In this document: positions 14,771 to 31,251 of the stretch, piece by piece | How positions within the stretch are numbered: position 1 is the first letter of the stretch | Layout: the number at the start of each line of letters is the position of its first letter | From: an uncultured Roseibium sp. | GTDB lineage: Bacteria; Pseudomonadota; Alphaproteobacteria; Rhizobiales; Stappiaceae | DNA: 64,000 nt | Reading direction: 5' to 3' | Assembly: GCF_947499295.1 (NCBI RefSeq) | Contig: NZ_CANMNP010000001.1 | Span: 496,001 to 560,000, forward strand | Made by a program: the position numbers and the translations under genes | Notes under the pieces: model-generated | What the model saw: only the letters and a program-made list of their open reading frames with translations | Told to the model about the DNA's origin: nothing | Databases searched by the model: none

Positions 14771-15466
14771 TCACGTTCGCGCCTTTTCGAACGCGGTCCA
14801 TGCTGCTTGAAATTTCTCGAAATTGAACCCTGGTTCGCGTGCAGGGCCCAAAACCAGCATTTCAGTCTCAAGGAGCTTTCGGATGGCGCCGGCAAGGTTC
14901 GGCACGACCGCGTCCGGTATCACAAGTGCACCGTGGCGATCTGCGTGCACAAGTTCACCGGGGTGAATTTCAAGGCCGAAGATCTTCACCGGAGTGTCGA
15001 TTTCTTTCACATGCACATATCCGTGGCTGGGGCCAATGGATCCGGCGACAACTGGAAACCCTTCTGGCAAGTCACCGAGGTCGCGCATGACGCCATTGGT
15101 GAGCGTGCCGGCCAGATCAAACCCCTTGTGTACCGTCGTGTTGATCTCGCCCCAGAAGGCTCCAATTGCATTTGGATAGTCGAGGTCCTCGACAACTGTA
15201 ATCGCCGGGCGTGGACCTTCCGACATATAGCGGTAGTAGTCCATCCGCCGAGCCTTGATAACTTCAGCCGGCTCTGTTGGCGGCGCCAAGGCGGAGATCT
15301 TTGCCGTTCTTGCGATCCCGACCATTGCACCATCCTCTGGTGCGGAACACAGCATTGTGCCGCGCGTGAAACGATTGAAACCGCGCCGCCCTTCGGCGAC
15401 TTCAATTGCGTTGCAGACAGTCGGTGTGTCGACGGATTTCAGGAGGTCGATGAGATCAATGTCCAT
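14771..15466 (-). CDS. RraA-like protein / HMG-type aldolase family
   Basis: The 231-residue protein has the RraA/4-hydroxy-4-methyl-2-oxoglutarate aldolase fold signature: LTNGVMRDLGDL with the catalytic Arg-Asp pair, FPVVAGSIGPSHG, and PGELVHADRHGALVIP. In catabolic clusters such proteins are usually pyruvate-type aldolases or oxaloacetate decarboxylases rather than RNase E inhibitors. It is the last gene of the long minus-strand operon and overlaps the hydrolase by one base, so it may release pyruvate in the final step; that is inference. Confidence 0.83.
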   Translation of the reverse strand: MDIDLIDLLKSVDTPTVCNAIEVAEGRRGFNRFTRGTMLCSAPEDGAMVGIARTAKISALAPPTEPAEVIKARRMDYYRYMSEGPRPAITVVEDLDYPNAIGAFWGEINTTVHKGFDLAGTLTNGVMRDLGDLPEGFPVVAGSIGPSHGYVHVKEIDTPVKIFGLEIHPGELVHADRHGALVIPDAVVPNLAGAIRKLLETEMLVLGPAREPGFNFEKFQAAWTAFEKART

Positions 15467-16158
15467 CAGAGTTCCAGCCAGGTTTTGAACGCCTCATTGA
15501 CAGCGTCAGGTTGTTCAAGTGTCGGGAGATGCCCAGCGCCCTCCACGATCGTCAATGTCGATCCGCTTATGAGGTCATGCATCAGTTCATGTCGATCGAG
15601 CGGGCAAAGCCTGTCCTCGGCACCCATGAGAACGAGGGTCGGACATGTGACCCCAGCCAGAGTGTCCTGCTGATCGGGCCGTGTCTGCAATGCCCGCGAC
15701 TGACGCTCGAACACACCAGCACCAAGATCCAGCGCCATGTCCATGCACAAGTCCAGGACATCCTGACGGCGCGGTCCGTTCGCCAGATAGTTGGGCTTCA
15801 ATTCGTCTCTCATGACGTCCTTGAGGCTGCCGGCCCGAACCTTGTCTATCTGCGGTTCCCGGCCTTTCTTGACCTCATCAAGTTCGGCACGCGGATTGGT
15901 GTCGAGCAACGCAAGCCGGACAACGCGCTCAGGCGCTTGGCGAACGACTTCCATCGCCACAATGCCACCCATTGAAAGGCCGGCGAGCGCGAAGCGAGGA
16001 GGAGCATTTTGCAGGAGATCTTCCGCAAGCTCGCGAATGCTCTCGTGCCCGGTCACGGGCGCCAGATGTAACGGCACTTCACCGGACAATTCTGCTATTT
16101 GCGGCCCATAAAGGCGTGCATCACACATCATGCCGGGCAATAGAACCAAAGGGGTCAC
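15466..16158 (-). CDS. Alpha/beta hydrolase
   Basis: The 230-residue hydrolase shows a catalytic triad: nucleophile serine in GLSMGG, acid in GAEDRLCP and histidine in GAGHLPTLE. Size and motifs fit the 3-oxoadipate enol-lactonase/esterase-like group. The start is a GTG at 16158 overlapping the stop of the MetE-like gene (GTGA), so translation is coupled. It probably opens a lactone or thioester formed upstream; substrate unknown. Confidence 0.85.
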   Translation of the reverse strand: MTPLVLLPGMMCDARLYGPQIAELSGEVPLHLAPVTGHESIRELAEDLLQNAPPRFALAGLSMGGIVAMEVVRQAPERVVRLALLDTNPRAELDEVKKGREPQIDKVRAGSLKDVMRDELKPNYLANGPRRQDVLDLCMDMALDLGAGVFERQSRALQTRPDQQDTLAGVTCPTLVLMGAEDRLCPLDRHELMHDLISGSTLTIVEGAGHLPTLEQPDAVNEAFKTWLEL

Positions 16159-17288
16159 GCACGCTCTCCAGCGATGGCAGCCCCTTCAGCAAGAGCGCCG
16201 AGCTTGGCATACGCAATCTCAGGATCAACGGCGCCAAAACCTGCAAATGTCCCGAAACCACAATCGGAGCCTGCGATCACCCTGTCAGCGCCAACAATGT
16301 CGACAAACCGGTCGAGACGCTGTGCAACGGCCTCCGGGTGTTCGACAAAATTCGTCGTGGTGTCGACAACACCCGGCACAAGGATCTTGTCTTCGGGAAT
16401 TTCTGATTTTCGATCCCGGAAGACGCTCCATTCATGCGCGTGGCGCGGGTTCGACGTTTCGAAGAGAACATACCTTGCACGTGCGGACATCAGCGTGGAA
16501 AAAACCTTGTCCATCGAAATATCGCACACGTGCGGTCCTTCGTAGTTGCCCCAGCAAATGTGAATACGCACATTCGCCGGATCAATGTTCTGAAGGGCAT
16601 GGTTCAAGGCCTCGATATGGCTTGCGGCAATCTTGATAAACTCTTCGTCGGACAGGTCGGTGAAGAGCATGTGCCGCGACAGGGCGAGGTCGGGACAGTC
16701 CAACTGCAGATCGAGCCCTGCTCCAACGATTGTCTCGTATTCCGCTTTCATGACCTCGGCCAGGGCTTCAAGGTAAGCCTCACGCGAAGGATAAAAGTCG
16801 TTCTGCAAAAAGAGTGAGATCACACCAGGAGACGCTGCATTCATAAAGCCGCGCTCGACCCCATTGGCGGCCATCGCCGCCTTCAGATTGGCGATGTCCT
16901 TTTCCAGTTCCCCCTGCCCTTTTGAACGAACTTCACCAGTGCACATCGGCCGGGCGTATTTTGGAGTGCCGCCGCTTTCTGCGATGCGTTTCAGGAAGCT
17001 CGGATAGAGCTTCAGATCCGCAGGCGCATTGCGCGGACTGTCACCTGAAAAGCCGGTGTATCGATCCTTCACGTAAGTTGCGTAAGATATCTTGGAAGTC
17101 TCGCCGTCGCTCACAATGGAGACACCGGCGTCCACCTGTTTGCGCACGGTTTCATTGACGGCTTCCGTCATTGCCGCGTCAAACGCCGCAGTTTCATAGT
17201 CGTCACCATTTTCCCGGGCGAATATGTAGTCGACGACTTTTTGCGTGCGTGGCAGCGATCCCACGTGCGTGACTTCGATTTTGCTCAT
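16155..17288 (-). CDS. MetE C-terminal-like zinc methyltransferase family protein (cobalamin-independent methionine synthase II-like)
   Basis: The 377-residue protein matches the C-terminal catalytic barrel of MetE: VTHVGSLPRTQ at the start, zinc ligands H and C in HICWGNYEG, E in FETSNPRH and C in SDCGFGTF. It lacks the N-terminal MetE half. This zinc site activates thiols, and the family includes methyltransferases and epoxyalkane:coenzyme M transferase. ATG 17288 is chosen over 17294 for its better spacing from AAGGGGG. Its presence with a GST and SDR suggests thiol chemistry on the substrate. Confidence 0.85.
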   Translation of the reverse strand: MSKIEVTHVGSLPRTQKVVDYIFARENGDDYETAAFDAAMTEAVNETVRKQVDAGVSIVSDGETSKISYATYVKDRYTGFSGDSPRNAPADLKLYPSFLKRIAESGGTPKYARPMCTGEVRSKGQGELEKDIANLKAAMAANGVERGFMNAASPGVISLFLQNDFYPSREAYLEALAEVMKAEYETIVGAGLDLQLDCPDLALSRHMLFTDLSDEEFIKIAASHIEALNHALQNIDPANVRIHICWGNYEGPHVCDISMDKVFSTLMSARARYVLFETSNPRHAHEWSVFRDRKSEIPEDKILVPGVVDTTTNFVEHPEAVAQRLDRFVDIVGADRVIAGSDCGFGTFAGFGAVDPEIAYAKLGALAEGAAIAGERA

Positions 17289-17338
17289 GTGCATTTCCCC
17301 CTTGCGGAACAGGTTGACCTGTCCTTCAAAACCCTTGG

Positions 17339-18304
17339 TCAGCCGATCCAGGTTGGACCTGCGGGGTCGTCTGTGTTCATCACTCTGAAGAGGCTGGCTT
17401 CTCCGCTCATCGAGGGTTCCAGACTATGCTCCAGTTCCGGCGGAACAGCGCAGGTGTCCCCCGGGGCCAGCACCTTTTCGCCACCCGTCCAACTGAGTTT
17501 CCAATGGCCGCGCATGACCATCAGGATCTCGTGGCAGTTCAGCCTGTAAGCGGTTTCGGGGATCGATCCGCGGGTCAGGAATTCGACTTCAAAACCTGGC
17601 TTGTCCTTGAGCAGCGCATTCTCACCAATCACCTTGCAAGGATTGCCCGCCGCAAGCGCCATCATGTCCCAATACCGGGCGATATAATCCCGAACGACAA
17701 TGTCGTTGCGCAGTTCCGGAAACGCCTTCAGCTCTTCTTCACTCAAGAGCGGCATCGGATTGACTTCAGCAGGCAGAGACTGACCCTTTTTTGTGTCATA
17801 AAGGACGCCGTTTTCCCCCAGCACAAGGCCATGATCTGCGGCGTCTTCGATGACCTGCGGCGCCCATGTCACCCCTCCGCCGGCATCGTCACCACCCAGG
17901 ATCGCCATGATCATTCCGTAGTCCGTGCCGATATTTTCAAAGCCTCGGAAAATCCCGGTGGGGATATTGAAGATGTCGCCTTCTTCAAGCACCATTTCTC
18001 CGGCCTTGCCCCAGCGGCCCCAGAAGAAACGCCACCGCCCTTTCAAGACATAAAAGACTTCGGCCGTTGTGTGCGAGTGAAGTGAATTCCGGCATTTTGG
18101 CGGTTGTCCGGCCGCACCGATGTTAAAGCCCGGTGTCTCCTTGATATGGACGTGCTGGTCCGGGCTTTCGGAAACACCGCCACCAATGATCGTGAAGTTT
18201 TCCTTTTGATCGGACCCGGGTGTATGAGCATCGATAAAGGCCGTACGGCAGGGTTTCAAATCGCCGTATCGGACGATCCGTGTTTCCATTTGTTCAGGGG
18301 TCAT
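17339..18304 (-). CDS. Bicupin protein (gentisate dioxygenase-like fold)
   Basis: The 321-residue protein has two cupin barrels. The first has an H-x-H pair and glutamate (SLHSHTTAEVFYVLKG), but the usual second-motif histidine is replaced in FRGFENIG. The second has CHEILMVMRGHW and GDTCAVPPELEHS. Bicupins include gentisate dioxygenase, oxalate decarboxylase and sugar isomerases. Partial loss of metal ligands makes a binding or non-oxygenase role possible. It lies 50 bases upstream of the MetE-like gene in the same operon. Confidence 0.8.
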   Translation of the reverse strand: MTPEQMETRIVRYGDLKPCRTAFIDAHTPGSDQKENFTIIGGGVSESPDQHVHIKETPGFNIGAAGQPPKCRNSLHSHTTAEVFYVLKGRWRFFWGRWGKAGEMVLEEGDIFNIPTGIFRGFENIGTDYGMIMAILGGDDAGGGVTWAPQVIEDAADHGLVLGENGVLYDTKKGQSLPAEVNPMPLLSEEELKAFPELRNDIVVRDYIARYWDMMALAAGNPCKVIGENALLKDKPGFEVEFLTRGSIPETAYRLNCHEILMVMRGHWKLSWTGGEKVLAPGDTCAVPPELEHSLEPSMSGEASLFRVMNTDDPAGPTWIG

Positions 18305-18334: not shown

Positions 18335-19303
18335 TCAGCCTGTTTTCAGGACAATCTGTTTCCAGATCGCCGTTTCATCAAAAAGTACGTATTCCCGGCG
18401 CAGACCCCATGGACCGAATTCGGCATGTGCGGCACCCATCACGTGGACGTCGGCACCAGATGGTTCGCCGAAGGCACCCCAGCCGTCATGGGTGCCGTGG
18501 AGCGACCAACGCAGCGCCGCGCGCGGCGGCATCATCGGGTCATCGCGGCCAATCTGATGCTCGATCTTGAATTCTGCAGACGGAAAGCTTGCACGCAGCC
18601 CCATCCAGAACCGGTCTGCATCACTCCAGGAACAACCGGCAACACCACCTGGATAGGCAAGCTGGCAGGCCCGATCATATTCGGCTTCAATTGCTGACAT
18701 GTCGGCGTTCATAAGGCGGGCTAGAATGTCGGCGTATTTAGCGCCCCACTCATTGTCATTGCCCTTGCCCTTGTATGGGCCCGGTTGATCAATGGCAGGC
18801 GTGAATGGCCGCACGCATTCCTTTGGGCCACCCTCGCGAGTGATGAGGTTTCGCGCATAGTCCGCCGGATCCCATCCCATCTGACGCACGATCGCACCCT
18901 GGTCCCGGATCAGCCACTCGTCATTGATCTGATTGTTGATCGCGTGGCAGTCGGCAATGATCCGGTATTGCAGTTTCTTGCCGCTCGCCTTGCCGTAGAC
19001 ACCGTCCCCGAGATGGGTCGCTGTTGAAATGATCCGGTGAGACGACAGCATGCCTTCTTCAGGTGAACCGGACCAAATGACATCTTCGCCCAGAAGCGTG
19101 CGATTGGGAAATTCGGCAAGTGTCGCCATTGTCGCCCCGATGACGTCCTGGTTGCCTACAACGAGTGAACCAGGCGAACGAACGACGATATCGTCAGAAT
19201 AGTAGTGATGAAGCGTGGCGATCTTTCGCTCTTCCCAGATCTCTCGGGTGATCCCGATAATGTAGTCGGGAAAGTCCTTCCAGTGCGGGTCAAAGCCTTT
19301 CAT
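18335..19303 (-). CDS. SnoaL/NTF2-like double-domain protein (divergent member)
   Basis: The 322-residue protein has two cone-shaped NTF2-like domains of the SnoaL/ester-cyclase type. The first covers about residues 5-150 (LHHYYSDDIVVRSPGSLVVG), the second about 190-320 (RASFPSAEFKIEHQIG, ALRWSLHGTHDGWGAFGEPS). Family members catalyse cyclisation, hydration or isomerisation or only bind ligands. ATG 19303 with GGAAGGA upstream is preferred to 19324; it overlaps the LacI gene end by 14 bases. It is the most divergent of five such proteins in this cluster. Confidence 0.75.
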   Translation of the reverse strand: MKGFDPHWKDFPDYIIGITREIWEERKIATLHHYYSDDIVVRSPGSLVVGNQDVIGATMATLAEFPNRTLLGEDVIWSGSPEEGMLSSHRIISTATHLGDGVYGKASGKKLQYRIIADCHAINNQINDEWLIRDQGAIVRQMGWDPADYARNLITREGGPKECVRPFTPAIDQPGPYKGKGNDNEWGAKYADILARLMNADMSAIEAEYDRACQLAYPGGVAGCSWSDADRFWMGLRASFPSAEFKIEHQIGRDDPMMPPRAALRWSLHGTHDGWGAFGEPSGADVHVMGAAHAEFGPWGLRREYVLFDETAIWKQIVLKTG

Positions 19304-20321
19304 TCGGCCATCCTTCCGGTACACGTGCGGACCCGCGGATCATGAGCGGCCCATCTATCTTGATTTTCTGAACGTCCTTGCTGCCTTCCTCGATCCAGCC
19401 AAGCAGCGTGGAAACCGTCGCTTCCACCATCCGGTTGGAAGGCTGGCGCAACGTTGTCAGGTCGTAGGCGGGCCAGGACGAAAGAGGCACATCATCGTAG
19501 CCAACGACCGAAACATCGCCCGGTACATCCAGCTTCAACTCAAACCGCAGGACATCCATGACAGCGAAAGCCATGTGATCGTTGCCGACGAAAACCGCGT
19601 CAGGGCGATCCCCGCCCTTGAACATGTCGAGCGCTGCAGCGGCAGCGGTCTCGCGCCTGTACATTCCGTCAACACAGGCCAAAAGTTCCTGACCGGCTGC
19701 TTCCAACCCGGCACGGAAGCCTGCTTCACGGTCTCGCCCCGTTGAAGACCCAGCCCATCCGGCAATATGCGCTATGCGCTTGTGACCACCGGCCACAAGG
19801 AATTCGGCAATCTTTCGGCCGCCCTCGAAATTGTTGGAGGTCACCTGATTAAGGCGCTCGTCGTCCTGTCCACGGTTGAAAAGCACCACCGGAACCCCGG
19901 CGTTTGAGCAACGTGAGGCAAGCTCGTTCGACATGCCGACCGAGGCGGTGATGATGCCGTCGACCTGGTAGTCGAGCAATTCACCCATCACCTTGTCGAT
20001 ACCAGCATCATCATTCGACACCATGAAAACCAGAATGTGATACCCGTGAGCCTGAAGGGCATTTGAAAGCTTTTCCAGAGCGTCCGGGTAGAACTGGTTT
20101 TCCAGATAGGCCACAACGAGGCCGATGATGCGAGAGCGCCCCGTGATCAGTGAGCGGGCGAGAACATTTGGCCGATACCCAAGCTCTTCAGCTGCCTTCA
20201 GGACCTTGTCCGCCATTTTAGGAGACACGGAGGCACCCGGTGTGAAGACACGGCTGACCGCCGACTGGCTGACACCGGCATGCCGTGCAACTTCAACGGA
20301 TGTGACTTTTTCGCTGCCCAT
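19290..20321 (-). CDS. LacI family transcriptional regulator of the SnoaL/ABC catabolic cluster
   Basis: The 343-residue protein has a LacI headpiece (VTSVEVARHAGVSQSAVSRV) and a ligand-binding domain (IIGLVVAYLENQFYPDALEK, DVSVVGYDDVPLSSWPAYDL). The ATG at 20321 overlaps the SDR stop (ATGA); the 20336 start is less likely. Being embedded in the operon, it would autoregulate. The three TGCAT palindromes at 24155, 30149 and 30204 have the symmetry and size of LacI-family sites and are its probable operators. Confidence 0.88.
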   Translation of the reverse strand: MGSEKVTSVEVARHAGVSQSAVSRVFTPGASVSPKMADKVLKAAEELGYRPNVLARSLITGRSRIIGLVVAYLENQFYPDALEKLSNALQAHGYHILVFMVSNDDAGIDKVMGELLDYQVDGIITASVGMSNELASRCSNAGVPVVLFNRGQDDERLNQVTSNNFEGGRKIAEFLVAGGHKRIAHIAGWAGSSTGRDREAGFRAGLEAAGQELLACVDGMYRRETAAAAALDMFKGGDRPDAVFVGNDHMAFAVMDVLRFELKLDVPGDVSVVGYDDVPLSSWPAYDLTTLRQPSNRMVEATVSTLLGWIEEGSKDVQKIKIDGPLMIRGSARVPEGWPNERL

Positions 20322-21088
20322 CAGTCTGCCGTCCAACCTCCGTCAACCAGAAGGGAGGTTCCGGTCACGAGGGACGAGGCATCACTTGCCAGATAAAGCA
20401 CTGCGCCCATGATGTCTTCCACAACACCAGTGCGACCCAGCTTGATCTTTTGTTCGATCCACTTGACCCGCTCGGGATTGTCGAAGGTCTGTTCGGTAAA
20501 AGGTGTTCGTATGAAGGTTGGGCAAATAGTATTGACCCGCACCTGTTTCGGACCGAATTCCAGGGCCATCGCCTTGGTGAACCCTTCAACTGCAAACTTC
20601 GATGCGCAATAGACAGCACGATCGATGCCACCGACATGGGCCATCTGAGATGACATGTTGATCAGGGAACCGGGTCTTCCCGCCTCGATCAGCCCCTTGG
20701 CGACACACTGCGTGATGAAATAGGCCCCCCTGAGATTGACATTCATCACCGCGTCAAAATCTTCAGGCGTGGTTTGTGTCGCCGGGGTGTGCCTTGCAAG
20801 GCCTGCACTGTTTACGAGCACGTCAAACGGCCCGTGTCTTTCCACGCTCACCTGCACTTCCAGCACATCGGCAATATCGAGCTGCAAGGCAGATGCCTTC
20901 CAGCCTCGTCCATTGAGCGCTGAGACTGCCTCTTTCAGCTTTTCCTCACGCCGGGCAGCCAGGACAACCTCGCCGCCAGCTTCCGCCAATACTGTGGCAC
21001 AGGCCAGCCCGATACCGGAGGAAGCACCTGTAACAAGGACGCGTTTACCGGCAAGAGAAAAACTTGGGGTGGAAGGAAGCTCGATCAT
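20321..21088 (-). CDS. Short-chain dehydrogenase/reductase (SDR)
   Basis: The 255-residue classical SDR has the cofactor motif VTGASSGIGLACA, the NSAG motif (VLVNSAG), and active-site serine with YCASK (Tyr-x3-Lys). It likely oxidises or reduces a hydroxyl on the cluster's substrate with NAD(P). It overlaps both neighbours (SnoaL upstream, LacI downstream) by 1-4 bases, so it is cotranscribed. Confidence 0.9.
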   Translation of the reverse strand: MIELPSTPSFSLAGKRVLVTGASSGIGLACATVLAEAGGEVVLAARREEKLKEAVSALNGRGWKASALQLDIADVLEVQVSVERHGPFDVLVNSAGLARHTPATQTTPEDFDAVMNVNLRGAYFITQCVAKGLIEAGRPGSLINMSSQMAHVGGIDRAVYCASKFAVEGFTKAMALEFGPKQVRVNTICPTFIRTPFTEQTFDNPERVKWIEQKIKLGRTGVVEDIMGAVLYLASDASSLVTGTSLLVDGGWTAD

Positions 21089-22140
21089 TGAAAGGCCACT
21101 CCGGTGTCTGGGTCAAAGCCGGCGCGGGCCTTGTTGAATTCCCGGAGCCTCTGGAAAACGTCAACACCGAGCTGCGCATAGGCGTCCAAGAGGTCGACCA
21201 GCACCCAGTTTTCACGGATCAGGCCGTTCTCCAGTCTCCAGAAATCCAGACTGCGCATGGTGATCTTCTTGCCAGATGGGGCAATTCCCATCCAACCGTC
21301 GTGCGAAACGGTCTGGATCATGTTCGGCCAACCAGTCACGGCGGCAAAATTTCTGTCGCCAAAGAAGTGATACTGGACCTGATCCACGTATTGTCCACGG
21401 TCCGGCATTCCGTTCAGGAAGGGGATCTGGTGCCATTTGCGAAATCCCTCGATGCCGCGCCCAGTCCCGATACCGGAAGGACCGTACCAGCTCATCCTAG
21501 GGTGCCAGAACCTTGGCATTTCCATGACTTCAGGGCCGCCTTGCGACGGATGCCGCTTCATGTATGTGAGCATATCGATAATGTGCTGACAGGTGACTTT
21601 GCCGGCACCTGCGTCGTAGGGACCTGGTACGATGCCATCGGCAGTGGCAGGGCCCGGCACTTGCCACTCCCGACCAAGGCTTGGAGCCATTGGCCAGGCG
21701 CTGGCCTGCATCATGACTTCCGGAATGTCCCAAAGCGCCTGAAACTCGACCACCTTGCCGTCGGCAAAACGAAAAAACTCATGAAAACGCATGGCAACCT
21801 GGTGCCTGGTCGCCGGGATATCGAGCCATGGATTTTCGAAGGAACCGGTGTAATACCCACCGCATCCGACCCAATCATTGCCTTCCGGTGTCGAGCCGGC
21901 CATCACGATGGTATCCCGGCGCTCCAGATCAGGTATTGCCTTGAACAAGGCCGCATAGGCCTTGTCATAAAAAGCGTCGCTTCCTGTCGTTTCGCCAATT
22001 GGATGGCAAAGACGAAACACGGCATCCGGAGAACAAAGCTCGGTGAGTGCCTTGCGGACACTCACCTCCTCAAAATCGTACATCGCTTCGCGCAAGGAGG
22101 CGATGCGCGCTTTGTGCTGCGTATGCGTGTCCAACGTCAT
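21085..22140 (-). CDS. SnoaL/NTF2-like double-domain protein
   Basis: The 351-residue protein has two NTF2/SnoaL-like domains. The C-terminal half carries WYGPSGIGTGRGIEGF, FAAVTGWPNM and RENWVLVDLLD, shared with the proteins at 24753-25763 and 30265-31251. The conserved aspartate/glutamate and histidine positions resemble polyketide-cyclase-type active sites, but no reaction is known for this double-domain group. ATGA overlaps on both sides tie it to the GST and SDR genes. Confidence 0.78.
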   Translation of the reverse strand: MTLDTHTQHKARIASLREAMYDFEEVSVRKALTELCSPDAVFRLCHPIGETTGSDAFYDKAYAALFKAIPDLERRDTIVMAGSTPEGNDWVGCGGYYTGSFENPWLDIPATRHQVAMRFHEFFRFADGKVVEFQALWDIPEVMMQASAWPMAPSLGREWQVPGPATADGIVPGPYDAGAGKVTCQHIIDMLTYMKRHPSQGGPEVMEMPRFWHPRMSWYGPSGIGTGRGIEGFRKWHQIPFLNGMPDRGQYVDQVQYHFFGDRNFAAVTGWPNMIQTVSHDGWMGIAPSGKKITMRSLDFWRLENGLIRENWVLVDLLDAYAQLGVDVFQRLREFNKARAGFDPDTGVAFQ

Positions 22141-22769
22141 GCGCCGGGCACCTTCATCGGCCAGAAGTCGATCATGACATTCTTCTGATAAGCAGGTCGT
22201 TCACACAGCCTGTCGTAATAAGCCTTGAGCCCCGGCAGGTCCGCGCGGTCGAACTCCAGCTCATAGTATCGGTACAACAGACCTCCGATCTGAAAATCGG
22301 CAAGGTTGAGCGCATCGCCGCCGATATAAGGACCCTTTATCAACTGTTCGACAATTGTCATGGCTTGTTTGAGAGCTGCCTCGGCAGCGGCGATTGCGGC
22401 TGAGTTCCGGTCTTCGACAGTGGTGCGCACGAACTGTATGAAAATGGTCGGGATGAGCGGCACATAGATGTGCTGCCTCGACATATCCGCCCAGCGCTCG
22501 ATCTGCGCTGCAGCCATGGGATCGGTGGGATGATCGCCATATTTGCGTATCAGGTACCGCAATATGGTCATGGCCTCAGAAAGGGTTTCGCCACCATCTT
22601 CCAGCACGGGCACAAGGCCCAGCGGGTTCATTGAAAGAAATTCCGCAGTGTCGTTGCCGCCGAACGGCCCGCCGACATCAAGACGCTCATAAGAAAGGCC
22701 CAGCTCTTCCAGGCACCAGACGACGGGCTGAACATTGGCGGATGTCAGGCGTCCATGGACTTTTATCAT
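22137..22769 (-). CDS. Glutathione S-transferase
   Basis: The 210-residue protein has the thioredoxin-like N-domain ([40 protein letters not shown], where ESmTI-like residues bind glutathione) and an all-helical C-domain. It resembles proteobacterial beta/theta-type GSTs. Placement between the HisD-like dehydrogenase and a SnoaL protein, both overlapping by 4 bases, suggests glutathione conjugation or thiolytic cleavage is part of the pathway rather than general stress defence. Confidence 0.88.
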
Positions 22770-24076: not shown

Positions 24077-24154
24077 GTTTCTTCCCTTTCAAAGCGCCGG
24101 CGAAGGTCTTGTTCCGGCCTTCTACCGCTTGCACAAAATTGTCAATTCTCAATT

Positions 24155-24168
24155 TGCATACGTATGCA
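24155..24168. promoter_or_regulatory. LacI-type operator, copy 1 (upstream of HisD-like operon)
   Basis: TGCATACGTATGCA is a perfect 14-bp palindrome with central CG, flanked by T-rich sequence on the left. It lies in the 143-bp gap before the HisD-like gene, the only sizeable gap in the minus-strand run 30.1-14.8 kb besides the region between binding protein and neighbours. It matches the two sites at 30149 and 30204. Confidence 0.7.
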
Positions 24169-24219
24169 GAACAATCAAGACGCTTATTCAGATTGCTCTG
24201 GAAGTTGTCTGCGGCCCGG

Positions 24220-24756
24220 TTAGGCCGCCTTGCCAGGAACGGGGGGTTGACGGTTTCCGCGGTCGAAGGCCTCCCACCCTTCCCCGTTGAAAACATCTAT
24301 TCCGAGCTGAGCCAGGACATGCGGAAAGTCGACCATGACCCAGTTGTCGACAATCTTGCCGTCTACCACTTTCCAGAAGTCCATATAGCGGATCTCAACC
24401 CGTTTTCCGGTCGGCTCGACGCCCATGAATGCACCGGAATGTGTTGCTTCCTGCCTCCCGAATGCAGCCGCCCACTCGCCCATGTAGAGCCGTGCTTCGT
24501 CCACGCAAACCTTTTCCGAAAAGGCCGCCTGAAACGGCTTTTGCCAGTTGTCCTGAAATTCCTTAAGTCCGGTTTTGGTGCCGCAGCCGGTGTTGCCGAG
24601 CCAACGAAAACCTTCGGAGAAGAATTCTCCAATGTCGGCGATCCGGTGGTCATTGAGGCCATCTACCATTGTCTCGATGACACGTTTCGTCTCATCGGTT
24701 TTGCTCATATCCGTATCGCGGCTCAAAACAGCCTGTTCAGGACGAGATCCCTTCAT
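24220..24756 (-). CDS. SnoaL/NTF2-like single-domain protein
   Basis: The 178-residue protein is one NTF2-like domain resembling the C-terminal half of the larger paralogues (MGVEPTGKRVEIRYMDFWKV, DNWVMVDFPHVLAQLGIDVF). ATG 24756 overlaps the upstream gene's stop (ATGA). It is the last gene of the transporter-led unit. It may pair with a double-domain paralogue or act as an ester-cyclase-like enzyme; function unknown. Confidence 0.78.
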   Translation of the reverse strand: MKGSRPEQAVLSRDTDMSKTDETKRVIETMVDGLNDHRIADIGEFFSEGFRWLGNTGCGTKTGLKEFQDNWQKPFQAAFSEKVCVDEARLYMGEWAAAFGRQEATHSGAFMGVEPTGKRVEIRYMDFWKVVDGKIVDNWVMVDFPHVLAQLGIDVFNGEGWEAFDRGNRQPPVPGKAA

Positions 24757-25763
24757 GTCCGGCCTCTGTTCATTTCTTCAAAAACATCAAAACCCAACTG
24801 CAAAAGCACGTGTGGCACATCGACAAAGACCCAGTTCTCCATCAACTTGTCACCTTCGCGCCGCCACCAGTCGCACACGCGCATATAGAGACGATCTCCT
24901 TTGGACGGCTGCCCCAGAAATGGCTTCGCCTGAACCGCGTTCAGTGACGGCCATCCGCCCGAGCAGACATAATTGCCGTCGCCAAAACGCGTGAAATGCC
25001 GGGTGCGGCTGCCTTCGACAGCTCCGCCGATCCATTCACTGAATGTGTTCTCGAAAGGCACCTGAAATCCGGCAAAGCCTTCCAGACCCGCAAAGCTCCC
25101 GAAGGCTGCGGGGCCATACCAGAGCATGTTTTCGTGCCAGTACGGCCGCCACAGTTCGTCCTTGGTCGCGAGCTTGCGCAGCATGTGCGTAACCATCTTC
25201 AAGGAAACCGCACTTACCGCCGGATCATTGTGGTGCCACTGCAAACCATCCTGGGTCACAGGGCCGGGCAGATACCCGGTATATCCGCGGGTTGCTCCCG
25301 GTGAAACGGCAATTGGCCATTGACTGGCCGCAATCATCAGCTCTGGGATATCGAGATAGATGTAGCTCTCGACAGCGCGCCCATTTTCCATTCGGTGGAA
25401 TTCCCCAAATCGGAGATAAGCTAGCGCTCCCGTCGGTCTGATGCCAAGCCAGGGTGACTTGAAATTCCCAAAATAGTAGCCTGTCGAAGTTACCCAGCCT
25501 GCCTCCTCAAAGCTTCCACCGAAAGCGATATAGTCGGACCGCCCAAGTCCGCTGAAAGCTTGTTTGAGGGGCCCCAGGAACCGATCGACATAGTTGCCCG
25601 GTCCGACTATCTCGTTCAAAGGATGCACAAGATTGATGACCGCATCTTCAGCGAAAAAACGATGCGTTGCTGCAACTGCCCCACCGGCATGTCCCAATCT
25701 GCAGGCGTCCACATACGCCTTCAGGGCAGCCTTGTTTGCCGGTATGGGGGACACCTGGTTCAC
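24753..25763 (-). CDS. SnoaL/NTF2-like double-domain protein
   Basis: The 336-residue protein shares WYGPAAFGSFAGLEGF, YVCSGGWPSL and MENWVFVDVPHVLLQLGFDV with paralogues in this cluster. The N-terminal domain also is SnoaL-like (AEDAVINLVHPLNEIVGPG). The start is a GTG at 25763, three bases beyond the permease stop, so translation probably depends on coupling. Its position directly after two permease genes links it to the imported compound. Confidence 0.78.
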   Translation of the reverse strand: MNQVSPIPANKAALKAYVDACRLGHAGGAVAATHRFFAEDAVINLVHPLNEIVGPGNYVDRFLGPLKQAFSGLGRSDYIAFGGSFEEAGWVTSTGYYFGNFKSPWLGIRPTGALAYLRFGEFHRMENGRAVESYIYLDIPELMIAASQWPIAVSPGATRGYTGYLPGPVTQDGLQWHHNDPAVSAVSLKMVTHMLRKLATKDELWRPYWHENMLWYGPAAFGSFAGLEGFAGFQVPFENTFSEWIGGAVEGSRTRHFTRFGDGNYVCSGGWPSLNAVQAKPFLGQPSKGDRLYMRVCDWWRREGDKLMENWVFVDVPHVLLQLGFDVFEEMNRGRT

Positions 25764-25766
25764 CGA

Positions 25767-26648
25767 TCAGCCCTTCACCGCTCCGGCGGTCAGTCCGGAG
25801 ACAATCTGACGCTGGAACAGCATCACGAGCAGGAACAACGGTGCAGTGGCGGACACAACAGCTGCAACAGCGAACATCACGTTACCCTCGGTATAGGTCG
25901 TTCCAAGGAACGCCGCGATTTTCGGCACCATGGTCCGGTTCTGCTCGTTCAGCAGCATCGTGGTTACAGCAAAATCGTTGTAAGCCAGCAGGAAACTGAA
26001 CAATCCGGTCGTGATTACACCGGGCCACATCACCGGAATGATGACATAGCGAAAGGCCTGAAACTGCGTGCACCCATCAACCTTCGCGCTTTCATCAAGA
26101 TCGATCGGGATCTTCTTGAAGAACGAATGCAGCATCCAAAGGGTGAATGGCTGATTGATCGCCACAAGCACGATGATCGCTGTCGGCAGATACCCCCAAA
26201 GGTTCCAGGCAAAAAACGGTGGCAGATACCCCGAAACCAGTGTGATTTGGGGCATGGCGCGGAAAATCAGCGCAGCTATCAGGAGCCAGAAGACATAATT
26301 GTAGTTGGAGCGGCTGAGCGCGTATCCACCAAGCGTGCCAATCGTCAATGAGGTGACGACGACAAATACGCAGACGATGCCGGTATTCAACGCAGCGCGC
26401 CAAAACTCTTCCTGTACCCAGGCACCATAGTATCCGGCCCCGGTAAAGGTCGAACCATGCGTTTCTTCGGTCAGCTTGCCGGTGATGGCATTGGTCCAGT
26501 CGGCGATCGAAAAGAAATCGAGTTCGACCTTGAAGGATCCCCACAGCGTCCAGAAGAAGGGAAACGCTGCCAGCACAAGCCAGAAAACGATGAATAAGGT
26601 CGAGGCAACCTTGAGGGAAACCGGTGCCTGTCTGGCAGATGAACTCAT
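25767..26648 (-). CDS. CUT1 ABC transporter permease (MalG type)
   Basis: The 293-residue inner-membrane permease has about six transmembrane segments and the coupling-loop motif of MalG-like subunits (SFFKKIPIDLDESAKVDGCT). It follows its partner permease by three bases. Together they form the channel for the cluster's CUT1 importer. Confidence 0.92.
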   Translation of the reverse strand: MSSSARQAPVSLKVASTLFIVFWLVLAAFPFFWTLWGSFKVELDFFSIADWTNAITGKLTEETHGSTFTGAGYYGAWVQEEFWRAALNTGIVCVFVVVTSLTIGTLGGYALSRSNYNYVFWLLIAALIFRAMPQITLVSGYLPPFFAWNLWGYLPTAIIVLVAINQPFTLWMLHSFFKKIPIDLDESAKVDGCTQFQAFRYVIIPVMWPGVITTGLFSFLLAYNDFAVTTMLLNEQNRTMVPKIAAFLGTTYTEGNVMFAVAAVVSATAPLFLLVMLFQRQIVSGLTAGAVKG

Positions 26649-26651
26649 GGC

Positions 26652-27677
26652 TCAAGCCTTCCCTTTAAAGTCGCGCCAAGTGCGCACAAGAACCGGCGAC
26701 AGCAAAATGGCCACCCCGATAATCGTCAGAACGGACGTGGTTGCAGCCGCTGACAGCTGGTTGGTCTCTCCGCTTAGATCGTTGAAAATGATCCACGAAA
26801 GCGACGTCGCATGAGCGGAGGCATTGAAACCGATGATCGGCTCAAACACGCGGAAATTGTCCATGAGCTGGATAAGCGCCACAAATGTCACGAGCGGCGT
26901 CAGATGCGGAAGCACAACATATCTGGTCTGCTGCCAGCGTGTTGCGCCGTCGATCTGCGCGCTTTCCAGCGTGTCTTGCGGCACGGTCTGTAGTCCGGCG
27001 TAAAAAACAACGAATGCAAAAGGTGCCGAGTGCCAAATGCCGTAAACCATCAATGCGATCCACATCAACGGTGTCGAGGCCTTCAGCGAAAGATCCGGGC
27101 TGCCTGCAACATATTGGATGAACTCACCAATGACGCCGCGACTGTCGATCATCCAATAAAGGGTCAGCGATCCGATCAGCGGTGTAACGATCATTGGCAG
27201 AAGCGAAAAGAAGATGACAAAGCCGCGAATTCTGCGGTTCAGCGAATTTACCGCTAGCGCAATCACAAATCCGAGGGCGATGAGCAGAGGCGTCACAACA
27301 AATGTGTAAGTCAGCGTGAACGCCATTGCCCGATAGAAGGGGAGATCGCCGACATCGCTAAAGAACTCGCCGATGCTCTGGCTAGTGGTCCAGGCTTCGC
27401 TCACCTCTGCAAAAGCCAGGTGCCCGCGATCCAGATAGATCCCAAGTCCCGCAAACCGCCCAAGCGGCTCGGCTTCACGCAGTTCAGCTGTTGCTTCCTG
27501 GTCGATCACCACACTCTTGGTGCAGCCAAAGGGACCACAGTTTTCCGTCTCAACCAGAACGGCTTCATGAGGTACGAACAGCGACTGGATCACGACCGAC
27601 CCTATTGGCGCTGCGATGAAGATCAGCATTGCAAGTGCTGTCGGTAGAAAAAACCAAAAGAAGGTCCTGTGTTTCAT
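26652..27677 (-). CDS. CUT1 ABC transporter permease (MalF type)
   Basis: The 341-residue permease has a hydrophobic N-terminal anchor, an extended periplasmic segment (residues about 30-105, with two cysteines in ENCGPFGCTKS) and the coupling loop LQTVPQDTLESAQIDGAT. The two-cysteine periplasmic insertion is less usual and might form a disulfide. It starts 73 bases after the binding-protein stop, beyond a strong hairpin. Confidence 0.9.
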   Translation of the reverse strand: MKHRTFFWFFLPTALAMLIFIAAPIGSVVIQSLFVPHEAVLVETENCGPFGCTKSVVIDQEATAELREAEPLGRFAGLGIYLDRGHLAFAEVSEAWTTSQSIGEFFSDVGDLPFYRAMAFTLTYTFVVTPLLIALGFVIALAVNSLNRRIRGFVIFFSLLPMIVTPLIGSLTLYWMIDSRGVIGEFIQYVAGSPDLSLKASTPLMWIALMVYGIWHSAPFAFVVFYAGLQTVPQDTLESAQIDGATRWQQTRYVVLPHLTPLVTFVALIQLMDNFRVFEPIIGFNASAHATSLSWIIFNDLSGETNQLSAAATTSVLTIIGVAILLSPVLVRTWRDFKGKA

Positions 27678-27739: not shown

Positions 27740-27750
27740 GGCGGTCCCGA

Positions 27751-28986
27751 TTAAAGGAAGCCTTTTTCCTTGGCAGCAGCTGTGTAAGCAGCTTCCACAT
27801 CCTTGAGCGCCTGCTCAGCGCTTTCCTTACCCTGCATGAAGTCAGTCAATTCAGCGCCAAGTGCTGTGTGCATCAGGCCCATGTATGGGAAAGTCGGGTA
27901 AGGGATCGTACCCTTGTTGGCGGCATCGAAAACACCGGTTGCTGCAGCTGTCGGCTCATAGCCGTCAATCAGCCATACGGCCTGGATCGCAACACCGTCG
28001 TCATTAAGAATGGACGGATCGATTGCATTTTTCATTGCAACGAAAGTCGCCTCTGCATCTTCGTCGGAAATGTTCTTTGCAACGGTCCAGCCATCCCACC
28101 AAAGTGTCGAAGCCGGCGTTGAGCCACCGCCAACGGTCATCGGACCGGAAATGGCGAAGCCGTCAACAACTTCCTGTGGCACACCATCCGCTGTGGTCAA
28201 AGTAGCTGCGCGCGACCCCCACATGTTCATCAACGCAACGTTGCCGGCACGATATTCGGCATTTGTGGCGTTTGAATCATGGGTCAGAAAGTCCGGGTTC
28301 ATGTATTCGCTGAGTGCCTTCATCATTTCCAGAGCCTTGACGCCGGCTTCGGAATTGACGTTCGGTTCTGCGGTGCCCGGTTTGAAGAACTCACCGCCAA
28401 AGCCCAGGAACATGTTGTTAAATTCCTGAGCAAGGTTCCAACCCGCGGCATAGGCACCGCCGACAGGGTTTTCCATGATGCCCTTCTCGCGGATCATTTG
28501 CGCGATGCCGAGCATGTCTTCATAGGTTTTCGGCGGCTCGACGCCAAGTTCATCAAGGACGTCCTTGCGGTAAACCAGATGCTGCGCATTGGCCATGAAG
28601 GCAACTGCCATGACCTTGCCGTCGATTGTGATCAGCTGGTTCTTGCTCAACCCGTCGCCATGCTTGGCAACAAGATCGTCCAGCGGGCGGATAAGATCAT
28701 CGTTCATCAAGGCGACGATGGACGAGTTGGCAATGATGGCTGTGGTGTACTCGGCCGGATTTCCGCTCATGCCAGCAACATTGAGCTTCTGATGGTCGGC
28801 TGTAAGGTTCGATTTGACTTCAACCGTGTCCGAAGCACATTCCTGAGCGCCCGCTCCAACGGTTTGAATTGCCGGGAATTCGTTGCCGATGATACTGATC
28901 CGGCCGTTTTCGACGCCGCATTCAGCATATGCAGCGGTTGCCATCAATGACATGGCACCTGCCAACAATAGTCTTTTCACAAGCAT
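27751..28986 (-). CDS. CUT1 ABC transporter extracellular solute-binding protein
   Basis: The 411-residue protein has a signal peptide (MLVKRLLLAGAMSLMATAAY, cleavage after AYA) and a family-1 binding-protein body (MSGNPAEYTTAIIANSSIVA, LVYRKDVLDELGVEPPKTYE). Family-1 proteins usually bind oligosaccharides, glycerol phosphates or polyols. It starts 72 bases after the ATPase stop. The ligand is unknown, and the enzyme set nearby does not look like a sugar pathway. Confidence 0.9.
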   Translation of the reverse strand: MLVKRLLLAGAMSLMATAAYAECGVENGRISIIGNEFPAIQTVGAGAQECASDTVEVKSNLTADHQKLNVAGMSGNPAEYTTAIIANSSIVALMNDDLIRPLDDLVAKHGDGLSKNQLITIDGKVMAVAFMANAQHLVYRKDVLDELGVEPPKTYEDMLGIAQMIREKGIMENPVGGAYAAGWNLAQEFNNMFLGFGGEFFKPGTAEPNVNSEAGVKALEMMKALSEYMNPDFLTHDSNATNAEYRAGNVALMNMWGSRAATLTTADGVPQEVVDGFAISGPMTVGGGSTPASTLWWDGWTVAKNISDEDAEATFVAMKNAIDPSILNDDGVAIQAVWLIDGYEPTAAATGVFDAANKGTIPYPTFPYMGLMHTALGAELTDFMQGKESAEQALKDVEAAYTAAAKEKGFL

Positions 28987-29058
28987 ATTTGTCCTCCTGC
29001 TATTCCTTGCGCCGATGACGCATCTCTGGAAACCGGCTGTGCCGGGTATGGACAGGCT

Positions 29059-30114
29059 TTAGGCGTCGAGACGCGCGCCTGTCTCGTGATGAAAAAGGTG
29101 ACAGATCTCCGGCGGAATATGCAGACCGACGGTCTCATCAATCTCAATTCGATAGTCTTTGCTTGCCTTCACAGAGATCAGCGCACCACCCGCCTTGACC
29201 GTGATCATTGTGGCGTCGCCGAGAAGCTCCATCGTGTAGACCGGCGCGTTGATCTCCGCTTCAGCGCTAGACTGAGCAACGGCTGCATCTTCGGCGCGAA
29301 AACCCAGGGTCACGGGTCCGTCCGGGCCGTTCAACCCGCCAATTTCGACATGCTCACCGGAAAACGTGCCACCCTTTAACGTGCCGTTCATGAGGTTCAT
29401 TGCGGGGGAACCGATAAATCCCGCCACGAACGTATTGGCAGGCTTGTCGTAGATATCAGTGGGGGTGCCAACCTGCTGAATGATGCCGCGCTGCATCACG
29501 ACGACCCGATCGGCAAGCGTCATTGCTTCGATCTGGTCATGTGTCACGTAGATCGTGGTGACCTGGAGCTCGTGCTGCAGGTTCTTGATCTGTGCCCGTG
29601 TGGACACACGCAACTTGGCGTCAAGGTTGGAAAGCGGCTCGTCCATCAGGAAGACATTCGGTTCGCGCACAATGGCGCGGGCAAGCGCGACGCGCTGACG
29701 CTGACCGCCTGAAAGTTCCGCCGGCTTGCGATGTAAAAACTCCCGCAGCTCAACCATATCGGCAGCGCGCATGACCCTTTCGTCATGCGTCGAGGGATCG
29801 ACCTTGCGCACTTTCAGCGGAAAGCGAATATTGTCATAGACATTCATGTTCGGATAAAGGCCATAGGACTGAAAGACCATGGCGATATCCCGGTCCTTGG
29901 GCTCGAGATTGTTGACCACCCGGTCACCAATAACAATTTCACCGCCCGAGGCATCCTCAAGGCCGGCGATCATCCGCATCGTTGTGGTCTTGCCGCAACC
30001 GGAGGGCCCCAGAAGCACAAGGAATTCTCGATCCGCGATCGTCAAGTTGAAGTTGTCGACGCCGACAAAGGCCCCCCAACGTTTTGACACGTTTTTCAGC
30101 TGAATCTCAGCCAC
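29059..30114 (-). CDS. CUT1 ABC transporter ATP-binding protein (UgpC/MalK type)
   Basis: The 351-residue ATPase has Walker A GPSGCGKTT, signature LSGGQRQRVALARAIV, Walker B VFLMDEPLSNLD, switch histidine in VTHDQIEAM and a C-terminal TOBE/regulatory domain. The GTG at 30114 is the start, behind GGGAGGGG. It is the first gene of the transporter operon and sits just downstream of the operator at 30149. Confidence 0.92.
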   Translation of the reverse strand: MAEIQLKNVSKRWGAFVGVDNFNLTIADREFLVLLGPSGCGKTTTMRMIAGLEDASGGEIVIGDRVVNNLEPKDRDIAMVFQSYGLYPNMNVYDNIRFPLKVRKVDPSTHDERVMRAADMVELREFLHRKPAELSGGQRQRVALARAIVREPNVFLMDEPLSNLDAKLRVSTRAQIKNLQHELQVTTIYVTHDQIEAMTLADRVVVMQRGIIQQVGTPTDIYDKPANTFVAGFIGSPAMNLMNGTLKGGTFSGEHVEIGGLNGPDGPVTLGFRAEDAAVAQSSAEAEINAPVYTMELLGDATMITVKAGGALISVKASKDYRIEIDETVGLHIPPEICHLFHHETGARLDA

Positions 30115-30144
30115 AGCGCCCCTCCCGAACCGTTCGCAAACTCA

Positions 30145-30221
30145 TTTTTGCATTCCTATGCAAAATAAGTAGACACACTTATCATTCTTTGGCAATGATT
30201 TTTTGCATACGAATGCAAAAA
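30145..30221. promoter_or_regulatory. Divergent promoter region with two LacI-type operators (copies 2 and 3)
   Basis: Two palindromes, TGCATTCCTATGCA (30149-30162) and TGCATACGAATGCA (30204-30217), both with T-rich left and A-rich right flanks, are centred 55 bases apart. Candidate promoters lie between: leftward TTGCCA (complement of 30190-30195) with TACTTA (complement of 30166-30171); rightward TAGACA (30170-30175) with AATGAT (30194-30199); both spacers are 18. Each operator therefore sits just downstream of one -10. Confidence 0.7.
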
Positions 30222-30264
30222 TGACATCAAGCCACGTTCAGCTCTTCATCTCAAAGGTTTGGAA

Positions 30265-31251
30265 ATGCCCGATTTTCGGATACCCCCGCATCAATTTCTG
30301 AATGCGGTTCATACGGTCTCGGCTTCTCAGGCAAAGGACCTGTTTGACCGTCATCTGGCAGAAGACGCTGTCTTTGACGTCGCCTTTCCGGTCAACCGCC
30401 TCAAAGGCCGCGATGCCGTTGTTGCCGGCTTCTTCGATCCGCTGACAAACGCTTTGAAAGATGTTCGCCGCCGCGACGAAATCTTCATTGGAGGTCCAAA
30501 CGGGCGTGCGCCTGGAGGGCATTGGCTGGCAAGTGTTGTGCATTATGTCGGCAATTTCGAGGAGCCGCTTTTCGGTGTCAAACCGTCAGGCCACCTCGCC
30601 TTTCTGCGCGCGGGAGAGTTTTACCGCGTGGAGCCTGACGGACGAATATCGGAAGCGAAGATAATCATCGACCTGCTGGACCTGATGCGCCAGTCGGGCG
30701 GATTGCCTCTGCCGAAGATGCTGGGTACGGAAATGCTGTTCCCGGGCCCGGCCACGCATGACGGTGTGTTGCCCACCGAACAGGCTGACGGAGAAAAAAC
30801 GCTGGACCTGTGCGAGGCAATGCTGGCCGACCTCAAGGCGTTCGACCCTGATACTTTCACATCAAAGGGCCAGACAGGTGACGACGGCTACTGGCATGAC
30901 GACATGCTCTGGTACGGACCCGGTGGAATCGGTTCCAACTATCGCTGGAGCGGCTTTGAAAAAGACCACCGGGCGTCTTTCCTGACCGCTTTTCCAGACC
31001 GTGTTGGCGGTGATCACTATTGCCGGATCGGTGATGGCAATTACGCAGCTGTCAGCGGCTGGCCTTCCATGACGATGACGCATGCAGGCGACTATCTGGG
31101 CGTAGCGGCCTCCGGTCGGTCCCTCACCCTCCGCGTCATGGATTTTTATCGCTGTGCAAATGGAAAGATCATGGAAAACTGGGTCTTGCTGGACTACCTG
31201 GATCTATTTCAGCAAATGGGCCGGGACTTGATCGCCGAACAGTCCGGCTGA
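30265..31251 (+). CDS. SnoaL/NTF2-like double-domain protein
   Basis: The 328-residue protein shares WYGPGGIGSNYRWSGF, YAAVSGWPSM and MENWVLLDYLDLFQQMG with the paralogues at 21085 and 24753. ATG 30265 follows AAAGG by seven bases; the upstream TTG at 30259 is ignored. It is the only gene of the cluster on the plus strand and has its own operator copy, so it is co-regulated with the transporter but transcribed separately. Confidence 0.8.
   Translation: MPDFRIPPHQFLNAVHTVSASQAKDLFDRHLAEDAVFDVAFPVNRLKGRDAVVAGFFDPLTNALKDVRRRDEIFIGGPNGRAPGGHWLASVVHYVGNFEEPLFGVKPSGHLAFLRAGEFYRVEPDGRISEAKIIIDLLDLMRQSGGLPLPKMLGTEMLFPGPATHDGVLPTEQADGEKTLDLCEAMLADLKAFDPDTFTSKGQTGDDGYWHDDMLWYGPGGIGSNYRWSGFEKDHRASFLTAFPDRVGGDHYCRIGDGNYAAVSGWPSMTMTHAGDYLGVAASGRSLTLRVMDFYRCANGKIMENWVLLDYLDLFQQMGRDLIAEQSG

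Follow-up and report, generated by a model that had tools for sequence, protein, structure and literature searches.

How can an importer of the carbohydrate type, a HisD-like dehydrogenase, a MetE-like zinc protein, a two-cupin protein (bicupin) and five SnoaL/NTF2-like proteins belong to a single metabolic route? This question is raised by a cluster at positions 14771-31251 of the window, the whole stretch of 64,000 nucleotides analysed here (G000:C1:496001-560000 of the 6.4-Mb genome of an uncultured Roseibium sp.), in which 16 genes lie on the minus strand and one divergent gene on the plus strand (Table 1). The cluster is probably, with a rough probability of 0.6, an inducible catabolic regulon that would carry out an oxidative route for one imported sugar-like compound. 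All of the gene families named in the initial annotation are present at this place, and Pfam and NCBIfam back the RraA-like, alpha/beta hydrolase, MetE catalytic domain, bicupin, short-chain dehydrogenase (SDR), glutathione S-transferase (GST), HisD-family, SnoaL and CUT1 assignments; the LacI-family regulator had been missed. We know of no standard route that the cluster matches, in agreement with that annotation, and no published description of the cluster was found in the literature searched, which left out most subscription papers.

The genes overlap along much of the cluster, as had been pointed out: by 1 bp between the RraA-like and hydrolase genes, by 4 bp at five junctions (hydrolase/MetE-like, SDR/SnoaLx2_C, SnoaLx2_C/GST, GST/HisD-like and SnoaL1/SnoaLx2_D), whereas lacI shares 16 and 35 bases with its two neighbors, all with the start codons called by the open reading frame (ORF) tool. 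The CUT1 importer is complete and comprises a family 1 solute-binding protein, two permeases and a MalK-type ATPase with a TOBE domain. Because the relatives of the binding protein in the PDB are distant only (best 4.2e-9), an assignment of the substrate from this protein was dropped.

Co-regulation of the cluster is suggested by its predicted operators. The divergent promoter holds the LacI-type palindrome TTGCATWCGWATGCAA, of which the window contains three copies at no more than two mismatches, compared with 0.10 expected in shuffles. At one mismatch, the 6.4-Mb genome contains the palindrome at those three sites only, and the backwards control gives 0. One of the copies lies 78-93 bp ahead of the hisD-like gene, which speaks for one or more internal promoters and against a single transcript. 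A palindrome centred on CG is found in 23 of 28 divergent regions, that of the window included (the misses are L008, L018, L054, L062 and L065). When 61 genomes, including that of the window and 37 of one genus, were surveyed at one mismatch, 20 had a site, and the control matched in one; 17 genomes carry the bicupin gene, and 16 of these also have a site. The 44 genomes that do not encode the bicupin include four with a site, namely G009 and G026, which harbor a minimal version consisting of the operator, the hisD-like gene, the SDR gene and lacI, and G002 and G024, whose lone sites at one mismatch have no cluster adjacent to them and were rejected as further regulon members. The divergent gene of the minimal version encodes an HpaI-like aldolase in G009 (350.4 bits against a cut-off of 368.8), and a divergent ORF of similar size is found in G026. 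In G023 and G032, a second CUT1 operon lies behind the same operator. Among 30 genomes reached through the loci, which partly represent the same loci as the 28 divergent regions, sites were found in 24 when two mismatches were allowed. In 12 of these 30 genomes, two sites are separated by 54-56 bp, and the two copies at the divergent promoter of the window by 55 bp; because the spacing is fixed, looping between twin operators is suggested. Palindromic sites with a central CG near the regulated genes are a feature of LacI-type regulons, and we infer that the local LacI protein binds the palindromes of the cluster.

The cluster is also kept together in other bacteria. Genome contigs were scanned with the HisD-like protein, and of 588 confirmed stretches the best 80 were retained, whose best segments show 83-94% identity. 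Mapping of the window genes onto these 80 loci showed the same cluster, with its order mostly kept, in Roseibium, many Rhodobacterales, some Rhizobiales and others; numerous carriers are marine, and some are bacteria of soil. Co-occurrence was counted around close HisD relatives, in the 59 loci that span at least 19 kb, with identity thresholds that we set gene by gene and with flanks that end at 10 kb, so that genes farther out can escape counting. A complete CUT1 importer is present in 42 of the 59, and these 42 loci contain SDR (41), bicupin (40), SnoaLx2_B (37), LacI (36), SnoaLx2_C (36), MetE-like (35), hydrolase (34), SnoaL1 (33), RraA (32), SnoaLx2_E (22), SnoaLx2_D (3) and GST (1) genes. 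The figure for SnoaLx2_E is too low, as the script takes the best paralogue, and clustering places this gene in 38 of the 80 loci. The 17 long loci that have no importer contain SDR (8), LacI (5), bicupin (5), SnoaLx2_B (4) and SnoaLx2_C (3) genes, and each of the others 0 or 1 times. Since GST is found in 2 and SnoaLx2_D in 4 of the 80 loci, both are accessories outside the core, and the earlier proposal that GST is a member of the pathway is not sustained.

In an independent sample of 385 alphaproteobacterial genomes, the HisD-like protein (E<=1e-150) was found in 56 and the bicupin (E<=1e-50) in 29, the latter in 30 copies, 26 of which lie no more than 12 kb from a close HisD relative (Fisher p ~1e-21 at the genome level, uncorrected for relatedness). 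The four remaining copies are in G406, G169, G144 and G134. In G406, a contig end cuts into the middle of the cluster, and in G144, the MetE-like, hydrolase and RraA genes stand at the start of another contig. In G169 (L204 on G169:C1, and G169:C77), the cluster has no hisD beside SnoaL1, and a close hisD relative is found on another contig. All 17 copies of the MetE-like protein detected at E<=1e-200 in this sample have a bicupin gene at a distance of no more than about 1 kb. The co-conservation of the cluster is thus far beyond chance, and its extent had been underestimated. The initial annotation had envisaged a dedicated catabolic system and had proposed comparative genomics as a check; the private operators and the loci that share the core genes, 32-41 times in 42 for most of them, bear out a dedicated and apparently co-regulated system, and the scattered orthologues lacking co-regulation that it had named as contrary evidence were encountered neither at the operators and loci nor in the 385 genomes.

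Two further forms of the cluster were noticed. A diverged version with MetE-like, SnoaLx2_B, bicupin and HisD-like genes is present in L155 and L156, from genomes of 1.6 and 1.4 Mb (G221 and G319), respectively. In L021 (17021-17623) and, as relatives, in eight other loci, a gene of the S-adenosylmethionine methyltransferase family, of which one member was scanned, lies between the bicupin and MetE-like genes.

The nearest sequences of the HisD-like protein in the PDB are HpsN and then HisD. According to the report on HpsN, a loop with the motif G-R-Y-A/S-H, the last His of which (His126) holds the sulfonate, is characteristic of HpsN, and HisD has G-S-A-P-L in its place (PMC11382572). This loop reads G126-K-F-P-M130 in all 81 close HisD rows (>80% identity, the window copy included) and G-[KR]-[FY]-P-[MIL] in 35 more distant neighborhoods fetched, of 59 HisD-like copies. 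The residues Q251, H254, E319, H320, D353, K354 and H413, which were paired by eye through a sequence alignment with the zinc ligands and catalytic residues of CpHpsN, are likewise present in 81 of 81 rows; the zinc ligands Gln/His/His/Asp and the catalytic Glu-His of HpsN (8v35; PMC11382572) are therefore kept, and the cluster enzyme shares its family and zinc site with HisD as well. In a tree of 60 rows, 52 rows form the GK clade (98/98), and the 3 rows of HpsN form a separate one (100/100); true HisD, CpHpsN and the GRYPL group have long branches, and the branches of HpsN and of the GRYPL group may join falsely. L167_2, which received its GK label by a regular expression only, falls in the GRYPL group. 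On sequence grounds, the GKFPM enzymes are a third clade of HisD-family dehydrogenases, neither HisD nor HpsN. Further HisD-family copies with the loop GRYPL or GRFPL, which constitute a fourth group in the tree, lie beside related clusters (L063 16562-18169, L082 18460-19929, L111 14837-16081 and L167 18510-19877).

The genome of the window holds three PF00815 genes, the best-scoring of which, L001, is the true HisD. Identity of the cluster enzyme with the HisD of histidine biosynthesis was accordingly rejected: L001 scores better, the loop is GKFPM and not GSAPL, and the setting is catabolic. Elsewhere in this genome, L182 (4766-14904, G000:C6) encodes a LacI regulator, a TRAP transporter, an HpsN with the loop GRYSH, an SDR, an MDR alcohol dehydrogenase, a member of the galactarate/altronate dehydratase family, which we take to be the family of SuyB, and an Ldh_2 protein. 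Because this hps-type operon is located elsewhere, 2,3-dihydroxypropanesulfonate (DHPS) is probably served by an operon of its own in this genome. The cluster resembles the HpsN system in that an SDR gene lies nearby, as in hpsNO, and in the four-electron alcohol oxidation expected of it. It differs in having no MDR (HpsP), in its CUT1 importer as opposed to the TRAP transporter of the hps-type operon, and in the GKFPM loop and separate clade of its enzyme; from the hpsO/hpsP/sulfolyase set, Pfam and NCBIfam scans found only an SDR among the cluster genes.

The MetE-like protein, of 379 aa, is the sole PF01717 match of the genome and consists of the catalytic domain alone. The residues H641, C643, E665 and C726 of Escherichia coli MetE, which we take to be the zinc ligands, align with H245, C247, E279 and C345, of which the His and both Cys are invariant and the Glu is nearly invariant in 33 rows. 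S433, E484 and D599 of E. coli MetE, presumably the homocysteine site, align with S13, E65 and D199. At the position of H694, which presumably protonates the folate, T313 is found and is invariant in 33 rows. Two features of a MetE methionine synthase are accordingly missing, because the N-terminal folate domain is absent and Thr313 replaces His694. The protein may also resemble 2-hydroxypropyl-coenzyme M lyase, a MetE-like epoxide opener that acts on an epoxide and a thiol. A match to MesX (DUF1852, PF08908), the partner of MesD, was not found in the genome, yet the control genomes gave none either. The part of the initial annotation that invoked thiol chemistry is thus plausible with respect to a zinc-thiol step at the retained zinc and homocysteine residues, and not with respect to GST.

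A catalytic MetE domain that has no folate domain is shared with core-MetE/MesA-D and with the Mes-like protein of Phaeobacter inhibens (PMC7857596, PMC12366255). The P. inhibens gene, PGA1_c27430, was deleted as a possible core methionine synthase, and its transcript fell 15 min after addition of dimethylsulfoniopropionate (DMSP), according to the latter report (PMC12366255). The deletion primers given there locate this gene. The upstream primer translates to AFIDAH and is found exactly in the bicupin gene of L022 and L024, and with 1-4 mismatches in that of L031, L048, L061 and L028; the downstream primer, which reads IGAYWG in one complement frame, is found in the RraA gene of L022, L024, L028 and L061 with 2-3 mismatches. 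A third primer maps with 2 mismatches to the junction between the MetE-like and hydrolase genes of L061, and a verification primer maps with 3 mismatches to the RraA gene of L022; no clear match was obtained for primers 12 and 15. Because the published primers (PMC12366255) place it between the bicupin and RraA genes, the P. inhibens mes-like gene belongs to this cluster, and its product is the orthologue of the MetE-like protein described here. The cluster protein is unlike the core methionine synthases in that it sits in a catabolic cluster beside a bicupin and has Thr313 for His694.

Seven of the nine PF07366 (SnoaL-domain) hits of the 6.4-Mb genome fall in the cluster. The count of five SnoaL/NTF2 proteins given earlier is correct, and four of them contain two NTF2 domains in tandem. 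SnoaL1 aligns with SnoaL (1sjw, 1.1e-11), in which Asp121 and His107 are the catalytic residues (PMC6830212). In SnoaL1, these positions are occupied by Val140 and Asp126, neither of which varies among 22 rows, and the cyclase chemistry of SnoaL is not supported for SnoaL1, the protein to which this residue test was applied. For a model of SnoaLx2_C (pLDDT 86), the best full-length fold matches include MonBI-MonBII and Lsd19, which are tandem polyether epoxide hydrolases, at a TMq of ~0.3 and a root-mean-square deviation of 15-18 A, and single domains alone superpose. The cluster proteins share the NTF2 fold with the SnoaL/AknH cyclases, Lsd19 and MonBI-MonBII, and the tandem ones share the two-domain architecture with Lsd19; they differ in belonging to a catabolic operon instead of polyketide biosynthesis, and from Lsd19 and MonBI-MonBII in domain arrangement.

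The bicupin is highly conserved (mean column identity of 78% in 30 rows). A single-sequence search gave no PDB relative at E<=0.01, and the sole hit of a profile search was acireductone dioxygenase (0.0016 over 41 positions). When a model (pLDDT 83) was compared with known structures, by Foldseek and in a second comparison, quercetinases, oxalate decarboxylases, salicylate/gentisate dioxygenases and seed vicilins appeared together among the 50 matches listed in the latter, with Z of 17.6-19.3; since the scores are tied across unlike bicupins, no function follows from the fold.

Table 1. Genes and predicted operators of the cluster (window positions).
Feature	Position	Strand	Remark
RraA-like aldolase/decarboxylase	14771..15466	-	PF03737 7.7e-16
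Alpha/beta hydrolase (ABH)	15466..16158	-	nearest PcaD-type enol-lactonase models, far under their cut-offs
MetE-like zinc protein	16155..17294	-	PF01717, without folate domain; orthologue of P. inhibens 'mes-like' PGA1_c27430
Bicupin (two-cupin protein)	17339..18304	-	Pfam
SnoaLx2_B, tandem SnoaL/NTF2 protein	18335..19324	-	Pfam
LacI-family regulator	19290..20336	-	PF00356, PF13377
Short-chain dehydrogenase (SDR), KduD/gluconate dehydrogenase-like	20321..21088	-	
SnoaLx2_C, tandem SnoaL/NTF2 protein	21085..22140	-	Pfam
Glutathione S-transferase (GST), accessory	22137..22769	-	Pfam
HisD-family dehydrogenase, third clade, motif GKFPM	22766..24076	-	
LacI-type operator (predicted), upstream of hisD-like gene	24154..24169	.	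one mismatch
SnoaL1, single-domain SnoaL/NTF2 protein	24220..24756	-	
SnoaLx2_D, tandem SnoaL/NTF2 protein, accessory	24753..25763	-	
CUT1 permease, MalG-like	25767..26648	-	PF00528
CUT1 permease, UgpA-like	26652..27677	-	PF00528
Solute-binding protein, family 1	27751..28986	-	PF13416/PF01547
MalK/UgpC-type ATPase	29059..30114	-	PF00005, TOBE_2; UgpC subfamily model 447.7 bits vs cut-off 432
LacI-type operator (predicted), divergent promoter, copy 1	30148..30163	.	one mismatch
LacI-type operator (predicted), divergent promoter, copy 2	30203..30218	.	no mismatch; 55 bp from copy 1
SnoaLx2_E, tandem SnoaL/NTF2 protein, divergent	30259..31251	+	

Beside the cluster, a short ORF at 31438-31872 (+) resembles D-2-hydroxyacid dehydrogenases in their N-terminal part alone, the remainder having no match, and looks like a truncated gene remnant. 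Directly downstream, at 13813-14463 (-), lies a gene for a peroxiredoxin of the AhpC/1-Cys type, of which no relative appears in the maps of the 80 loci. A tRNA-Ser (GCT) gene is located at 46052-46141 (-).

Several observations weigh against a single inducible route. G057 carries the bicupin gene but lacks a site at one mismatch. When two mismatches are allowed, 6 of the 30 genomes reached through the loci are still devoid of a site, and the backwards control matches in 4. The clusters of L010 and L041 have no SnoaL gene in the map, and those of L039, L063 and L082 retain only a relative of 28-29%, so that not every one of the five SnoaL proteins can be an essential step. The MetE-like family extends beyond the cluster, being present in 72 of 385 genomes at E<=1e-60, and the ten relatives outside the cluster that were scanned have mixed neighbors and no shared theme. 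According to the P. inhibens study, the mes-like deletion mutant retained the shortening of the lag by DMSP (PMC12366255). Finally, the same HisD clade is found in unrelated settings, including the 17 of 59 long loci that have no importer, where its neighbors are mixed and comprise TRAP, hydantoinase, aminotransferase, amidase or AtuA genes. Because the clade also sits apart from the cluster, its substrate need not be unique to the cluster route, and the clade may serve several routes that share a kind of substrate. In L158, a gene at 11211-12152 of a second, unrelated homocysteine S-methyltransferase family (PF02574) adjoins a HisD gene of the same clade and an SDR gene.

An ordinary sugar, polyol or sugar acid might be degraded instead by a non-phosphorylating oxidative route, in which the SnoaL, MetE-like and bicupin proteins would act as conventional isomerases, lactonases or decarboxylases. 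The CUT1 importer and LacI regulator, with their palindromic sites, are those of carbohydrate operons, and the SDR is nearest to KduD and gluconate dehydrogenases. Additional genes point in the same direction, namely a divergent amidohydrolase in 24 loci (the L021 copy, the only one scanned, is nearest to the L-fucono-lactonase model, far under its cut-off), an FGGY protein resembling xylulokinase (under the cut-off) and a gene with a sugar-isomerase domain after the bicupin gene of L010, and a GlcD-like oxidase gene in L017. The core, however, contains no kinase, the PDB relatives of the binding protein are distant only, the enzyme set as a whole was not matched to a named route, and we know of no sugar route in which the MetE-like and SnoaL proteins would have a place; this explanation is possible but rather doubtful. 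The reading of the initial annotation, according to which an oxygenated natural product or lactone is taken up, activated by a thiol, ring-opened and converted with release of a C3 acid, agrees with the retained zinc-thiol site, with a hydrolase nearest to enol-lactonase models, with the presence of RraA, and with the epoxide hydrolases among the full-length fold matches of SnoaLx2_C. It is nevertheless unlikely, given that GST is not conserved, that SnoaL1 has lost the catalytic residues of SnoaL, and that those fold matches superpose by single domains only.

A second route for DHPS or a closely related sulfonate, initiated by an HpsN-like enzyme, would explain why HpsN sequences are nearest to the HisD-like protein in the PDB and why the latter retains the Lys and Asp that are in contact with R-sulfolactate in HpsN (PMC11382572). 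This route is largely refuted and has hardly any probability left: Met replaces the His that holds the sulfonate (in all 81 rows), the enzyme falls in a clade of its own, no cluster gene was assigned to a sulfolyase family in the Pfam and NCBIfam scans, and the genome has its TRAP-hpsN-SDR-MDR operon elsewhere. HpsN identity and DHPS catabolism were rejected on the basis of the loop motif, the tree and this operon. It is similarly improbable, if slightly less so, that the MetE-like gene encodes a core methionine synthase and that biosynthetic and catabolic genes are only loosely assembled in the cluster. The MetE fold, the zinc and homocysteine residues and the name Mes-like given to the P. 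inhibens gene (PMC12366255) would suit such a role; a 1251-aa ORF with a MetH activation domain occurs in the genome, all 17 close copies lie next to a bicupin gene, and the deletion that left the response to DMSP in place also argues against it.

The inducible oxidative regulon, then, would operate as follows. A compound whose class is suggested by the transporter family would be taken up by the CUT1 importer, and the LacI protein, which would bind the palindromes and loop the twin operators, would be released by an inducer. The GKFPM enzyme most likely performs a four-electron oxidation of a terminal alcohol, from CH(OH)-CH2OH to CH(OH)-COOH in two NAD-dependent steps, by analogy with HisD and HpsN on their own substrates; this is the strongest of the mechanistic assignments. 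A secondary alcohol may be oxidised by the SDR. The MetE-like protein may pass an alkyl group, which could be methyl, on to a thiol bound to zinc (homocysteine, for example), or may use such a thiol to open an electrophile, and the bicupin would act beside it. The tandem SnoaL/NTF2 proteins could perform cofactor-free proton, epoxide or retro-aldol steps; the roles of these proteins and of the bicupin are the weakest of the assignments. An ester or lactone would be opened by the hydrolase. Aldolase reactions and oxo-acid cleavage belong to the general chemistry of the RraA and HpaI families, and RraA, or the HpaI-type aldolase in the smallest version, would complete the route by cleavage of an oxo-acid to a central C3 or C4 acid. 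More tentatively, and with less than even odds, the cluster may represent a new type of pathway, in which a zinc-thiolate MetE-like enzyme strips an alkyl group from a sugar-like marine metabolite or opens its epoxide or enone, together with the bicupin and the tandem NTF2 proteins, and a third functional class of HisD-family dehydrogenase makes the carboxylate.

Several enzymes of the cluster carry misleading family names. The published Mes-like gene is now placed in a catabolic setting, and if such a pathway is true, the Phaeobacter gene now called a core methionine synthase is a catabolic enzyme. The third HisD-family clade comes with a loop motif that can be tested. Because the diverged cluster is found in alphaproteobacterial genomes of 1.4-1.6 Mb and the full cluster in many Rhodobacterales loci, its substrate may be a widespread and unrecognised carbon source.

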